54,181 nt of DNA from Acidimicrobiales bacterium. Lineage in GTDB: Bacteria > Actinomycetota > Acidimicrobiia > Acidimicrobiales > GCA-2861595. Shown piece by piece: positions 16,010 to 21,189 of the stretch. The stretch lies in assembly GCA_035540975.1 (NCBI GenBank), contig DATLFN010000029.1, positions 1 through 54,181 of the forward strand, read 5' to 3'. The first letter of the stretch is position 1. Every line of letters starts with the position of its first letter. The notes beneath the pieces were generated by a model. The model saw only the letters and a program-made list of their open reading frames with translations, was not told the DNA's origin and searched no databases. The position numbers and the translations under genes are program-made.

Positions 16010-17497
16010 CTAGTCCCGTAGGTCGAGGCCGCTCGGCGCGCTGGCGGGGGGCTCGACGGCCCGGCCGGTGGCCTCCACGGCGGAGACCACGGCGTCCGCC
16101 GGGGGAACGGTGTTCCCGCTCGGCGGCGACGCGCAGGCGACGGGGATGCCGAGCACCCGGATGTCGCGGCACGGCTGGCGCTGGTCGGCCAGGTCCACGT
16201 CCACCACGGCGGCGTCGGTGGCGACCTTGACCCGGCCCTTGCCGAGCGCCTCGAGGTCGGTCCCCGCCAGCCGCTGCAGCTCGTCGGGCAGACCCTCGAT
16301 CTGATCGGCCAGAGCGGCCAGGTCGACGGCTGCGCCGGCATCCGCCCCGCTCGCCCCCGCAGCGGCGTGGGCCGAGGCCCTCGCGCCGGCACCCGACGTG
16401 GACGTGCTGGCGGTGGCGGCGGGGGCGGCGATGCTGGTCGGAGGCGGGTTGGCACTCCGCCGGTCGGCGATCGCCCCCGCGCCCACCACGCCGGCCACCA
16501 GCAGAGCGGCGGACGCGATGGAGGCGACGAGCGAGCTCGACGCGGTGACGGCGCCCGCGCCGACACCCACGCTCGCCACCGGAGCGGCCGTCCCAGCCGC
16601 ACCCGCCGTGCCGGTGGCGCCGACGCCGGCGGAGGCCGACGCGCCCGAGGTGACGCCCACGGAGGCGGACGCGGCGCCCGTGGACGGCGCCGCCAGCTCC
16701 CACTCGGCCAGGGCCAGGGCGGCCAGCCCGGCGGGCAGCGGCAGCACCGACCGGCGCAGCGACGGCGCCAGGTCCTGAAGGTCGGCGAGGCGGGCCCGGC
16801 ACGGGTCGCAGCCGGCGAGGTGCTGGTCGACCTTGGCGACGTCGCGCGGCGCCAGCCCGCCGGCGGCGTACGCGCCGAGGCGATCGACGGTGTGGCGGCA
16901 GCCCAACCGCACGTCGTTCTGCCGGAGGTGGGCCTGGAGGTAGCGCTCCCGAAGCCCCGCCCGGGCCCGGACGGCGAGCTGAGCGACGCCGTTGGGCGAC
17001 ACGCCGAGCAGCATGGCGGCGTCCCGGGCGGGGATCTGCTCCACCTCGGTCAGCCACAGGACCGACCGCCAGCGTTCGGGAAGGCTGCGGAAGGCCCGGG
17101 CGACCATGCTGGCGTCCTCGTCGGCCAGCAGGAAGTCGACCGGACCGCCGTTGAGCGTCGGCCATTCGCGATCCTCGGCCGCCTCGCTCGGTTGTTGACG
17201 CCCGCCTCGACGGAGGACGTCGATGGCCGCGTTCCGAACGGCGGCGAGCAGGTACGGGAGGAAGTGGTCGGCCGCGTAGAGGCGCTCCGGGAGGGCCTGG
17301 AACACCCGGGTGAAGGCGTCGCTGACCGCGTCGGCGGCATCGTCGGGGTTCGTGGTGACCGCCAGGGCCACCCGCCAGGCGGCGTCGACATGGCGGCGGT
17401 AGAGCTCTCCGAAGGCGGCGAGGTCGCCGGCGGTGGCGCGGGCGACGAGCGACGCGTCGGTCGCCTCCTGTTCCGCCGTCTGTCCTCGCTTGCGCAT
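16010..17497 (-). CDS. ECF sigma factor fused to zinc-finger anti-sigma-like, membrane and extracytoplasmic regions
   Basis: 495 aa. Order: sigma-70 region 2 (about 17-100, DAADAVSDAFTRVF), region 4 (about 135-190, SLPERWRSVLWLTEVEQI and a helix-turn-helix), then an anti-sigma-type zinc finger (about 200-237, with HTVDRL and HLAGCDPC, the HxxxCxxC motif), an Ala/Ser/Gly-rich linker, one membrane helix (about 322-344) and a ~150-residue tail outside the membrane with two Cys. This is the membrane-tethered ECF architecture in which the sigma factor carries its own regulator. ATG 17497 follows AGAAGAGAGCGG; TACTCT at 17547-17552 (minus strand) may be its -10. The activating signal is unknown. 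Confidence 0.9.
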   Translation of the reverse strand: MRKRGQTAEQEATDASLVARATAGDLAAFGELYRRHVDAAWRVALAVTTNPDDAADAVSDAFTRVFQALPERLYAADHFLPYLLAAVRNAAIDVLRRGGRQQPSEAAEDREWPTLNGGPVDFLLADEDASMVARAFRSLPERWRSVLWLTEVEQIPARDAAMLLGVSPNGVAQLAVRARAGLRERYLQAHLRQNDVRLGCRHTVDRLGAYAAGGLAPRDVAKVDQHLAGCDPCRARLADLQDLAPSLRRSVLPLPAGLAALALAEWELAAPSTGAASASVGVTSGASASAGVGATGTAGAAGTAAPVASVGVGAGAVTASSSLVASIASAALLVAGVVGAGAIADRRSANPPPTSIAAPAATASTSTSGAGARASAHAAAGASGADAGAAVDLAALADQIEGLPDELQRLAGTDLEALGKGRVKVATDAAVVDVDLADQRQPCRDIRVLGIPVACASPPSGNTVPPADAVVSAVEATGRAVEPPASAPSGLDLRD

Positions 17498-17773
17498 CCG
17501 CTCTCTTCTCACAGGTCCCACCCGGACCGGACCGCCCTTGATCGCCAGAGTACCGGGCCGTAGGCCCGAATTCGACCGGTACCGCGCGCGGGTCGCGCCC
17601 CTCGCGCCAAGGGGGTCGAAAGCCCCTCTACCGGGCCGTCGCGGCGAACCAGGTCGGTCACGGCAACGGGCGGCTGGTCCTCCCGCGGGCGGCCGGCGGT
17701 CGGCGGCCGGCCGGTCACCCCGCGGCGGTCGCCTCGACGGCGACCCGGGCGCCGGGCCGTGCGAGAGTGGCCC

Positions 17774-18994
17774 ATGGCGCCGTTCTCACTCGAGCTCGAC
17801 GAGGACCAGCTCCAGGTCCGGTCCTGGGTACACGGGTTCGCGGCCGACGTCGTGCGGCCCGTGGCGTCGGAATGGGACGAGCGGGAGGAGACGCCGTGGC
17901 CGGTGATCGAGCAGGCGGCGGACGTCGGTCTCTACTCGCTCGACTTCCTGGCCAACGCCTTCGCCGACCCCACCGGCCTCACCGTCCCCCTCGTCATGGA
18001 GGAGATGGCGTGGGGCGACGCCGGCATCGCCCTCGCCATCTTCGGCACGACCCTGGGCGTCTCCGGCCTCATGGCCAACGGGACCCCCGAGCAGGTCGCC
18101 GAGTGGCTTCCCCTGTGCTTCCGCGACGAGCAGGGGAAGGTCGCCGTCGCGGCCTTCGCCGTCTCCGAGCCCGACGCCGGGTCCGACGTCAGCTCGCTGC
18201 GGACGCGAGCGGTCTACGACGAGGCGACCGACGAATGGGTCCTCGACGGCACGAAGACGTGGATCACCAATGGCGGCATCGCCGCCGTGCACGTGATCGT
18301 GGCGTCGGTCGACCCCTCGCTCGGCTCGCGCGGCCAGGCCAGCTTCGTCGTACCGCCGGGCACGGCCGGGCTCTCCCAGGGGCAGAAGTTCAAGAAGCTC
18401 GGCATCCGCGCCTCGCACACGGCGGAGGTCGTCCTCGACGGGTGCCGCCTACCCGGGCGCTGCCTGCTCGGCGGGCGGGAGAAGCTCGACGAGCGCCTGG
18501 CCCGGGCCCGCGAGGGCCGCAGCACCGGGCGCAGCCAGGCCGCCATGCGGACGTTCGAGTCGTCACGCCCGGCCGTCGGAGCCCAGGCCGTCGGCATCGC
18601 CCGGGCCGCCTATGAACACGCCCTCGAACACGCCAAGAACCGGCGGCAGTTCGGCCGGTCGATCGTGGAGAACCAGGCCATCGCCTTCAAGCTGGCCGAC
18701 ATGAAGACGCTTATCGACGCCTCCCGGCTCCTCGTCTGGCGGGCGGCGTGGATGAGCAGGCAGAGCAGCGGGTTCCCGAACGGCGAGGGGTCGATGGCGA
18801 AGCTCTTCGCCGGTGAGACGGCCGTGAAGGTGACGGACGAGGCGATCCAGGTCCTCGGCGGGTACGGCTACGTGCGCGACGAGCCCGTCGAGCGCTGGCA
18901 CCGGGACGCCAAGATCTACACGATCTTCGAGGGCACGTCCGAGATCCAGCGCCTCATCATCGCGAGAGCCATATCCGGCAGGCACATCCCGTGA
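17774..18994 (+). CDS. Acyl-CoA dehydrogenase
   Basis: 406 aa FAD enzyme that removes two hydrogens from an acyl-CoA. Motifs: AVSEPDAGSDVSSLRTRA and WVLDGTKTWITNG (substrate/FAD loop), NRRQFGRSI, and near the C-terminus VLGGYGYVRDEPVERWHRDAKIY followed by the catalytic Glu in IFEGTSEIQR. All core residues look intact. ATG 17774 gives the normal N-terminus. It has no adjacent beta-oxidation genes, so the substrate cannot be told from context. Divergent from the ECF sigma gene across 276 bases in which I see no other gene. Confidence 0.93.
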   Translation: MAPFSLELDEDQLQVRSWVHGFAADVVRPVASEWDEREETPWPVIEQAADVGLYSLDFLANAFADPTGLTVPLVMEEMAWGDAGIALAIFGTTLGVSGLMANGTPEQVAEWLPLCFRDEQGKVAVAAFAVSEPDAGSDVSSLRTRAVYDEATDEWVLDGTKTWITNGGIAAVHVIVASVDPSLGSRGQASFVVPPGTAGLSQGQKFKKLGIRASHTAEVVLDGCRLPGRCLLGGREKLDERLARAREGRSTGRSQAAMRTFESSRPAVGAQAVGIARAAYEHALEHAKNRRQFGRSIVENQAIAFKLADMKTLIDASRLLVWRAAWMSRQSSGFPNGEGSMAKLFAGETAVKVTDEAIQVLGGYGYVRDEPVERWHRDAKIYTIFEGTSEIQRLIIARAISGRHIP

Positions 18995-19140: not shown

Positions 19141-20310
19141 TCACTCGACGACGAAGGTACCAAGACCCGCTGACACGGCACTGTTGGGGGAGCGTTCGAT
19201 TCCTCGTCCTGACCCATCGGCGCAGTTGACCTCCCGGTACGTGGTCTGCGTCAGGGTGGCGTAGAAGCGGTACAAGCCCGGGCTGACACGCCTCCCGTCC
19301 TCATCGCGGCCGTCCCATCGCACGGTGAGGTCATTCGCGCCGACCGACAGCGGAGTCTCCACAGGGATCCCGCGGATCGCGCTCCCTGGCCATGGTGCGT
19401 CGATCGGAGCGATCTCGAAGAGGAGCCCGTGGACCTCCGTGTCCGGCCTTTGCATCGCCCGGATCGCGACGGTCACACCCTCGGGCCCAACGGTGAGCTG
19501 CCATTCGTTGCCCGGTCGGCCAACGACTTCGAACGTCACCGCCGGCGGCGGCGGGGGTGCCTTGGTTCCGACGCACTCTCGATCCCGGTTCGACGGAACC
19601 GTCGTGGCGGTTGGCCGGATGGACGCGACGATGCGCTCCACGGCGGCTCGGTCTCCGGCAGAGACGTTCGTGCCGAACCACACCATCACCCGGTAGCCGT
19701 CGTCACCTCCCAGCGTTACCCGGACGCCGTGACTCGGTGCCTGTGGAGGATGAGCCTCCGAAGGCGTCGAGGCGGTCCAGTCGACGGCGAGCGGGAAGGC
19801 CGTGTCCGGTTCGGCGGGGTGGAACGACGGCCTCAGCCTCATGTGGCTCATCTCGACGGCTCCGAAGGTGTCGGGCACCCCGCCGAGGTCCCACGACGTG
19901 GTGCACGGCGGCGGCTCGTGGAAGCGGAGCGCGCGGTCCAGATTGGTCACCACGGTGCCCGAGAAGCCGACCCGGCACTGCCCGGAGAAGTGCTGCACGG
20001 TCCAGCCCGCGGGATGCTCGAAGCGCCAGCCGAGTGCGGAGCTGGTCGCCGCCACCCACCCGTCGGCGGCCTCGCGGGGCCCGGCGACGACGCGGCGGTC
20101 GTCGGCGCCGTCGCCGGCACGGACCGCAGCGGCAGCGGCCACAACCGCGACGACCACAGCAGCGGCGGCCGCAAGACGACGGGTCCTCCGGCGCCGATCG
20201 TGAGATGCCAGCCGCTCGTCGACCCTGTCGCGGAGGTTGGGCGGCGGTGGAAACCGGCGGGCGGCGTGATCGAGGCTGTCACGCAAGCAGTGTTCGAGCT
20301 CAGTCGTCAT
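19141..20310 (-). CDS. Membrane-anchored anti-sigma-like protein with C-terminal FlgD-type Ig domain
   Basis: 389 aa. A polar N-terminus of ~45 residues ends in an Arg cluster, then one Ala/Val membrane helix (about 46-63) and a large outside region. The C-terminal ~130 residues contain VRWDGRDEDGRRVSPGLYRFYATL, the signature of FlgD-like Ig folds. The ATG overlaps by 11 bases the end of a sigma-factor reading frame (20300-20460), the usual sigma/anti-sigma arrangement, so the N-terminus probably bound that sigma factor. The sigma gene is now only a stump, leaving this protein without its obvious partner. GGAGGG precedes the start by about 7 bases. Confidence 0.75.
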   Translation of the reverse strand: MTTELEHCLRDSLDHAARRFPPPPNLRDRVDERLASHDRRRRTRRLAAAAAVVVAVVAAAAAVRAGDGADDRRVVAGPREAADGWVAATSSALGWRFEHPAGWTVQHFSGQCRVGFSGTVVTNLDRALRFHEPPPCTTSWDLGGVPDTFGAVEMSHMRLRPSFHPAEPDTAFPLAVDWTASTPSEAHPPQAPSHGVRVTLGGDDGYRVMVWFGTNVSAGDRAAVERIVASIRPTATTVPSNRDRECVGTKAPPPPPAVTFEVVGRPGNEWQLTVGPEGVTVAIRAMQRPDTEVHGLLFEIAPIDAPWPGSAIRGIPVETPLSVGANDLTVRWDGRDEDGRRVSPGLYRFYATLTQTTYREVNCADGSGRGIERSPNSAVSAGLGTFVVE

Positions 20311-20460
20311 CGTCGTGCCCTCCGAGGATGTCTCGTAGCCGTTCCAGGCCGCGTGCCGTCGTGGACTTGACCGTTCCGACGGGTATCTCGAGGATCTCCG
20401 CCACAAGTTCTGCGTCGACGGGCCTCACCACCTCTCCAGATGCCGGCTGGCGGTCACAGG
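20300..20460 (-). pseudogene. 3' remnant of an ECF sigma factor gene (region 4 only)
   Basis: Translating from about 20460 to the TGA at 20300 gives the C-terminus of a SigE-like sigma factor: DAELVAEILEIPVGTVKST, then RGLERLRDILGG and an acidic end. Regions 2 and linker are absent; upstream the sequence turns into an unrelated frame ending ASRHLERW. The overlap with the downstream anti-sigma-like gene is intact, so the 5' part was lost by deletion. A GTG at 20427 could still start a 42-residue peptide. Confidence 0.75.
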
Positions 20461-20622
20461 TTCCATGAGTCCGGCGTCCTCCAGTGTGCTCAGCCGTCCG
20501 GGGTGCTCGTCGGGGCCGAAGCCTCAGGGCGAGCGCGTCCCCGAGCCGGCGTTCGGGGTGCGCCTGGGTCGACCTCGGCTTGTGGCGGAGTAGCCGGGCC
20601 TGCGTGCCCGGGACCAGACCCC

Positions 20623-21189
20623 TCAGGCCGTGGCTCGACTGGGCTGGTAGCGCAGAGCGACCGCCCCGGCCCGGAACTCCTGGCGACCCACGAGCTCAAG
20701 CTCCAGCCGCTCCCTCAGGCCGGCGAACAACGTCGGCCCGTGGCCCGCCACGATGGGGTGGACGACGACCTCGTACTCGTCGATCAATCCCAGGTCGGCC
20801 AGGGCCAGCGGGAGGGTCACGCCTCCCACGTACAGGCCCCGGCCGGGCTCATGCTTGAGCTCCTGAACGGCCGTCGCCAGTTCGCCGCGCAGGAGCTCGG
20901 CGTTCCAATCGACGTGGTCCAGGGTGCCCGACACCACGTACTTCTTCGCCCTGTCGATCGCCCGGGCGAAGGGGACCATCCAAGCAGCCATCCACTCGGG
21001 CCCCGTCCCGGTCGCCGACTGCCGCCACGCCGCCTCCATCATCTCGTAGGTCACCCGGCCAAGGAGCAGGGCATCGGCTCGCTCAAGCCCGTCGGCGAAA
21101 TGGCGATGCAACTCCTCGTCCGGGCTCATCACCCGGTGATCGCAGCAGCCGTCGAGGGTGACGTTGATCGAGTACCGGAGCGGTCTCAT
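20623..21189 (-). CDS. Dihydrofolate-reductase-like (RibD C-terminal domain) protein
   Basis: 188 aa. Fold signature: INVTLDGCCDHR at the start, LLLGRVTYEMMEAAW, KKYVVSGTLD, YVGGVTLPLALADLGLIDEYEVVVHPIVAGHG, all typical of the RibD_C/DHFR-like family abundant in actinobacteria. Likely an NADPH-dependent reductase of unknown substrate; not a true folA. AAGGGGGAG precedes the ATG. It lies 110 bases after the XRE-cupin gene on the same strand. Confidence 0.88.
   Translation of the reverse strand: MRPLRYSINVTLDGCCDHRVMSPDEELHRHFADGLERADALLLGRVTYEMMEAAWRQSATGTGPEWMAAWMVPFARAIDRAKKYVVSGTLDHVDWNAELLRGELATAVQELKHEPGRGLYVGGVTLPLALADLGLIDEYEVVVHPIVAGHGPTLFAGLRERLELELVGRQEFRAGAVALRYQPSRATA

Follow-up and report, generated by a model that had tools for sequence, protein, structure and literature searches.

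A probable half-lost ECF sigma/anti-sigma operon in an Acidimicrobiales bacterium, with the anti-sigma-type gene intact behind the end of its sigma gene

How does the gene of an anti-sigma-type membrane protein come to stand behind only the last codons of a sigma gene, and what use, if any, could be left for the protein? The question is raised by contig DATLFN010000029.1 of the Acidimicrobiales bacterium assembly GCA_035540975.1, of which the window analyzed here comprises 54,181 nucleotides. We consider it likely that the locus is an ECF sigma/anti-sigma operon of which one half has been lost: the sigma gene would have been mostly deleted and the anti-sigma gene left intact, with the sigma stub kept or tolerated for the ribosome-binding site that it carries.

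The orphan membrane protein and the sigma remnant

The anti-sigma-type membrane protein (389 residues; positions 19141-20310, minus strand) is intact as judged by ORF translation, profile searches and alignments, and the first-pass annotation, to which it looked so, is borne out. An open frame of 389 codons has a probability of ~6e-4 in random sequence of equal base composition, and residues 1-245 are 51% identical to a protein from another genome of the same family (G001). The protein is built from a charged, sigma-binding-like segment (residues 1-42), a single hydrophobic stretch read directly off the sequence (~45-63), an extracytoplasmic middle domain (~83-240), a proline-rich hinge and a C-terminal part. 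Its N-terminal segment is homologous to those of proteins encoded beside full sigma genes; at this locus only a remnant of the adjacent cognate sigma gene is present. The match to the NCBIfam antisigma model NF052375 is weak (22.7 bits against a cut-off of 100), and inspection of residues 1-45 finds no Hx3Cx2C, the motif given for the zinc-binding class I anti-sigma domain in PMC7406223.

A FlgD-like Ig domain had been proposed for the outside portion of the protein, and the likeness holds at the level of a motif and a sub-threshold match. Near the C-terminus a W-D-G-R-D-E-D-G ... G-x-Y motif resembles that of the FlgD Ig-like domain (PF13860), but the match (~309-357) scores 21.1 bits, below the curated gathering score of 27, and the model of the domain, built from a 12-sequence alignment, is a beta structure of low confidence (mean pLDDT 65). 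When this low-confidence model is compared using Foldseek, FlgD/hook-cap chains rank 2, 3 and 14 (best E 0.016, TM-score 0.37-0.38), and none of the 844 matches reaches an E of 0.001. We regard the FlgD-like character of the C-terminal domain as suggestive only.

Upstream lies the remnant of a SigE-family ECF sigma gene (20300-20404, minus strand), identified by DNA alignment to the intact sigma gene of G001 and by Pfam and NCBIfam profiles. It comprises the last 34 codons and the stop, corresponding to the second half of region 4. Homology to the G001 gene starts at 20404 and ends at the stop at 20300, with 78% identity across 32 residues. The first-pass annotation was thus right about the sigma tail and too generous about its extent, which it gave as the last ~45 codons (20300-20460). 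The longest reading frame of the remnant starts from a GTG and encodes 43 residues (20300-20431, minus strand), its 5' 9 codons being without clear sigma homology; the in-frame GTGs, at 20431 (43 residues) and 20428 (42 residues), do not include 20427, the position that had been reported. This 43-codon frame matches positions 32-54 of the 54 of Pfam Sigma70_r4_2 (E 2.1e-4; 21.3 bits, below the gathering score of 25.7) and positions 131-158 of the 162 of the NCBIfam SigE-family model TIGR02983 (E 8.7e-7; 29 bits, the cut-off of 141.55 being set for a whole protein). From the latter match, ~130 codons are missing. A member of TIGR02983 has both region 2 and region 4 (~160 residues), and what is left here is the C-terminal helix-turn-helix part of region 4. 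In the spacer that separates the breakpoint from the next gene (20405-20622), a profile search detects no sigma-like sequence in any of the six frames, all scores being negative, and the idea of a decayed or frameshifted sigma gene upstream was dropped.

Relative to G001, differences at codon positions 1, 2 and 3 number 4, 3 and 12 in the tail (30 codons), 9, 2 and 16 in the first 36 codons of the anti-sigma gene, and 78, 70 and 117 across residues 1-245 of the membrane protein (240 codons). This concentration at third positions implies that the tail and the N-terminal segment spent most of their history under selection. The bias mostly reflects the time before the sigma gene was lost and carries little information on what followed the deletion.

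The sigma stop and the anti-sigma start overlap by 11 nucleotides (20300-20310, minus strand), as had been noted, with the anti-sigma ATG at 20310 and an identical layout in G001. Because of this overlap the ribosome-binding site of the anti-sigma gene falls within the last sigma codons, where a Shine-Dalgarno-like GGAGGG (20318-20323, minus strand) can be read by eye within the remnant, 7 nucleotides before the ATG. The GTG starts of the remnant itself are poorly spaced by the same kind of inspection, lying 0 and 3 nucleotides behind a GGAGAG. No sigma-70-type promoter was found near the remnant or the orphan gene where 0.1 would be expected by chance, a consensus scan being uninformative for a genome of such composition, and no terminator was found near the remnant, about as chance predicts.

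The intact state in relatives and the missing sigma sequence

The intact locus in a relative, with which the breakpoints were to be aligned according to the first-pass annotation, is provided by G001, in which the 51%-identical protein is preceded by a full sigma gene with an equal overlap. More broadly, surveys of sampled genomes other than this one find an adjacent full sigma gene at 52 of the 57 examined loci with an N-terminal match, that is (40+8+4)/(41+12+4). The initial surveys yielded 53 loci in other genomes, of which 41 have an N-terminal match (query start 18 or less); 40 of these have an adjacent full sigma gene (at least 130 of 167 model positions, at a gap of at most 142 nt), the remaining one being L070, in which the sigma gene is frame-split. 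The other 12 loci, matched only from query position 31 or beyond (roughly the membrane span and what follows) and lying outside the 57, comprise four with a full sigma gene and eight with none. A phylum-wide search added 19 new loci for examination, including 12 with an N-terminal match; the seven whose match starts at 21 or beyond are not counted. Eight of the 12 have an adjacent full sigma gene (L127, L130 and L133-L138), the sigma gene is ~330 nt off in L132 and ~1 kb off in L139, L141 lies at a contig edge, and L124, in genome G672, has a sigma tail only. Four further new loci (L154, L156, L157 and L158) came from five genomes searched in the order of G672; all have a full sigma gene, ~150 nt away in L157. 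The five exceptions among the 57 are accordingly L070, L132, L139, L141 and L124.

Six best candidates were scored per genome and genomes were sampled from larger groups, so that the match counts are lower bounds. Survey rows without a locus were left out (five in one survey, one in another), and L003 was present in one homology search and missed by a later survey. The phylum-wide search had 39 rows, 19 of them without a locus, from which G672:C64, G867:C244 and two further G818 copies were looked at. A sigma search with default filters missed the G672 tail, which was found at higher sensitivity, and since the eight sigma-less loci were searched with default filters, tails may have been missed there.

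A short sigma gene is not the normal state of the family: the protein occurs in two of the six same-family genomes, this one included, and the other of the two has the full gene. No other tail-only locus was seen in the sampled genomes of the order. The first-pass annotation had named relatives with the same short gene as their normal state as what would speak against a deletion; among the sampled genomes of the order the tail-only state is confined to this one, and G672, which belongs to another class, shares it. The relatives compared all lie outside the genus.

Two other irregular sigma genes came to light. In the same genome, L029 (G000:C82, ~1323-1768) has a SigE-like sigma gene whose reading frame shifts inside region 4, while the overlapping anti-sigma gene behind it is intact; the shift is either a mutation or an error in the assembly of a 3.4-kb contig. 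In L070 (G492:C1, reverse-complement 1014-1489), a SigE-type sigma is divided between two overlapping frames, the split falling in the linker that connects regions 2 and 4; on this 3-Mb contig the arrangement is a frameshift or a split sigma.

We looked for the missing part of the gene throughout the genome. With the G001 sigma as query, 16 stretches are matched across all 171 contigs; the tail in the window is 74% identical, the others 45% or less, and those longer than 140 residues 39% or less. No close match to the missing codons turns up on any of the 171 contigs, and relocation of the N-terminal half elsewhere was rejected, the best other sigma being 39% identical. Taken with the full gene in G001 and at 52 of 57 loci, this supports the proposal that the anti-sigma gene was orphaned by deletion of its sigma gene. 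The breakpoint lies inside the 54-kb contig, across which GC is even, in an assembly that is 96.9% complete in its 171 contigs.

Beyond the spacer, the upstream neighbor on the strand of the orphan gene encodes a RibD_C-domain protein (20623-21189, minus strand; Pfam E 2.8e-13). The relatives looked at have contexts other than this one, and synteny approached from the RibD_C side was abandoned, its homologs (up to 74% identical) sitting, in the loci examined, without the other window genes tested. The spacer has only 18-34 nt matches in these loci, and no copy elsewhere in the genome beyond one 24-nt match. This near-repeat (20531-20554, 96%) recurs on contig C146 of the same genome and contains, by eye, a short C/G-rich inverted repeat. 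On the other side, the convergent neighbor is an acyl-CoA dehydrogenase gene (17759-18994, plus strand). The order cysS, csp, sigma/zinc-finger fusion, acyl-CoA dehydrogenase is kept in the same-family genome G004 and in G002, and the G004 synteny stops at the dehydrogenase, with no match over ~15 kb more save a 41% paralog match at 3.7-4.8 kb of the window; G002 agrees with G004, its contig stopping ~1 kb beyond the dehydrogenase. The fusion is encoded by a single ORF (16010-17521, minus strand) with sigma regions 2 and 4, then zf-HC2 and a hydrophobic segment, which makes it a sigma/anti-sigma-like fusion protein; same-family genomes likewise have it beside the dehydrogenase. In G001 the sigma/anti-sigma pair sits between icd-like and mdh-like genes (names by eye), which in the genome of the window are ~90 nt apart with no pair between them. 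Such differing surroundings show the pair to be an accessory locus that occupies different sites. It was also considered as plasmid or viral cargo, for which there is no plasmid match and no relative in viral contigs.

A second tail-only locus and the middle domain beyond sigma genes

Apart from G001, the best match of the phylum-wide search (E 1.1e-33) lies on contig C10 of G672, from another class of the same phylum. Its protein, of 238 residues and 35% identical to that of the window, shares the N-terminal, membrane and middle parts with it and lacks the FlgD-like C-terminus. Directly before the anti-sigma-type gene, and overlapping it by 4 nt (ATGA), is a region-4 tail that matches positions 25-54 of the Sigma70_r4_2 profile with 29.0 bits, above the gathering score of 25.7; the 2.6 kb scanned hold no further sigma-like sequence. 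The upstream neighbor is divergent and dnaB-like (by eye) instead of RibD_C, the sole nearby in-frame start for the tail is a TTG, and a strong Shine-Dalgarno GGAGG is seen by eye 5 nt from the anti-sigma start. The four full sigma genes found in its order indicate that the tail-only state is not the rule there either.

The two tails have only nine of 28 aligned residues in common and differ at the G-T pair shared by all sequences of the sigma alignment. On this basis the comparison suggests two separate losses, though they may descend from one shared old loss. The presence of a strong Shine-Dalgarno in both tails offers the simplest reason for their retention: the stub may be kept as the carrier of the surviving gene's start signal.

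The middle domain was also followed on its own, with a two-sequence profile. In G672:C64 (L144, 4464-5306, minus strand) it occurs in a protein that by eye looks like a lipoprotein and shows no evident segment for sigma binding; neither the 9.0 kb examined around this copy nor the 7.7 kb examined around that of G786 contains a sigma match. The nearest sigma to the G867 (C49) copy is on the other strand, full sigma genes lie near the copies of G806, G779 and G867 (C244), and in G750 the contig ends within the copy. A 733-residue frame in G818:C389 (L148, 1996-4194, minus strand) has three tandem middle domains; they follow an N-terminus of the anti-sigma type, and a full sigma gene precedes the frame. 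The occurrence of the domain in proteins without a sigma gene beside them implies that it is not tied to sigma control, and gives some support to a second role for the orphan. A sigma-independent role of the orphan protein is therefore plausible as far as domain distribution can suggest it.

Explanations of the locus and their meaning

In gene order, overlapping stop and start, N-terminal segment, single hydrophobic stretch and variable extracytoplasmic domain, the locus resembles the operons of SigE-family ECF sigma factors with short membrane anti-sigma factors (TIGR02983), from which it differs in having its sigma gene cut down to the last 34 codons. We propose that a deletion or rearrangement removed about the first 130 sigma codons and whatever preceded them, the loss following from the comparison with relatives and its mechanism being conjectural. 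The remaining sigma end would thereby have been joined to unrelated DNA carrying the RibD_C gene, and the downstream anti-sigma gene left intact. The site within the last sigma codons may then have been what kept the stub, by selection or by mere tolerance. The protein would now be without its cognate sigma, and any action it retains would most likely run through the extracytoplasmic domain or consist in weakly sequestering a paralogous SigE-type sigma; alternatively, the membrane protein may be a relic at an early stage.

An assembly artefact, with unrelated stretches joined at ~20404 and the sigma gene whole in the organism, would require that the rest of the gene fall into a gap, as it could in a 171-contig assembly of this completeness, and the G004 gene order also stops nearby. 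We nevertheless think this improbable, given that the rest of the sigma is on no contig, that the break lies well within a contig of even GC, and that a different genome, G672, has the same kind of configuration. It is less probable still that the tail is translated as a functional mini-protein of 42-43 residues that binds the anti-sigma segment, for example keeping it folded or blocking other sigma factors. The recurrence of a tail before an intact anti-sigma gene in G672 and the third-position-biased change relative to G001 are what such a protein would predict. Helix 1 of class I anti-sigma domains contacts region 4 at helices 4.2 and 4.4 (PMC7406223), and the end of that region is present in the tail. 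Yet region 2 is missing from the tail altogether, as is more than half of region 4. Since class I domains engage region 4 with one helix and region 2 with a second (PMC7406223), an isolated piece of region 4 could serve as a partial ligand at most. The GTG starts with their badly spaced Shine-Dalgarno, the TTG of G672 and the little that the tails share, with no conserved peptide visible, likewise argue against it, and the 42-residue mini-partner of the first-pass annotation finds no support.

For the surviving protein, decay without any role is a serious if tentative prospect: the cognate sigma and any promoter before it are gone, and the orphan state, seen in a single one of the sampled genomes of its order, may not persist. 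Against decay speak the 389 open codons, a good Shine-Dalgarno sequence and the recurrence of the orphan layout in a different class. A regulator acting in trans, restraining a paralogous SigE-type sigma of its own genome, seems unlikely. The strong conservation of the N-terminal segment with G001 would suit it, as would the 14 other ECF-like sigma loci detected in the genome with the G001 sigma. However, 10 of these 14 have their own overlapping downstream gene for a membrane or zinc-type anti-sigma (counted by eye), the remaining four lacking one or not being judgeable, so that no obvious unattended SigE-type sigma awaiting a partner is apparent. The best-scoring paralog is, moreover, only 39% identical to the G001 sigma, and anti-sigma factors of one group are mostly orthogonal according to PMC7406223.

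A limited literature search returned no paper on an orphan anti-sigma factor with a truncated sigma factor, and we make no claim that none is in print. The closest parallel is Nocardia SigK/RskA, in which RskA is truncated, its remnant still inhibits and is often annotated as a pseudogene (PMC7509140). There too a sigma/anti-sigma pair has one member left as a remnant, but it is the anti-sigma that is cut, whereas here it is the sigma. A broader proposal would be that sigma loss with retention of the region-4 tail is a recurrent route by which an anti-sigma is freed as a stand-alone membrane protein, or becomes a receptor with a built-in mini-sigma-4 ligand, its extracytoplasmic domain then being used without sigma as in the lipoprotein-like copy of G672; we hold this to be rather a long shot.

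Returning to the half-lost operon that we favor, the analysis brought two unexpected additions, a second, distant tail-only example and a sensor domain without a sigma gene, the latter being the best argument that the orphan can still have a use. An anti-sigma factor without its sigma would be expected to be useless, and two such loci in different classes make it testable whether these proteins are relics, cross-regulators or bearers of a new task. For the persistence of sigma stubs the loci offer a simple rule, namely that the stub may remain as it bears the ribosome-binding site of its partner.
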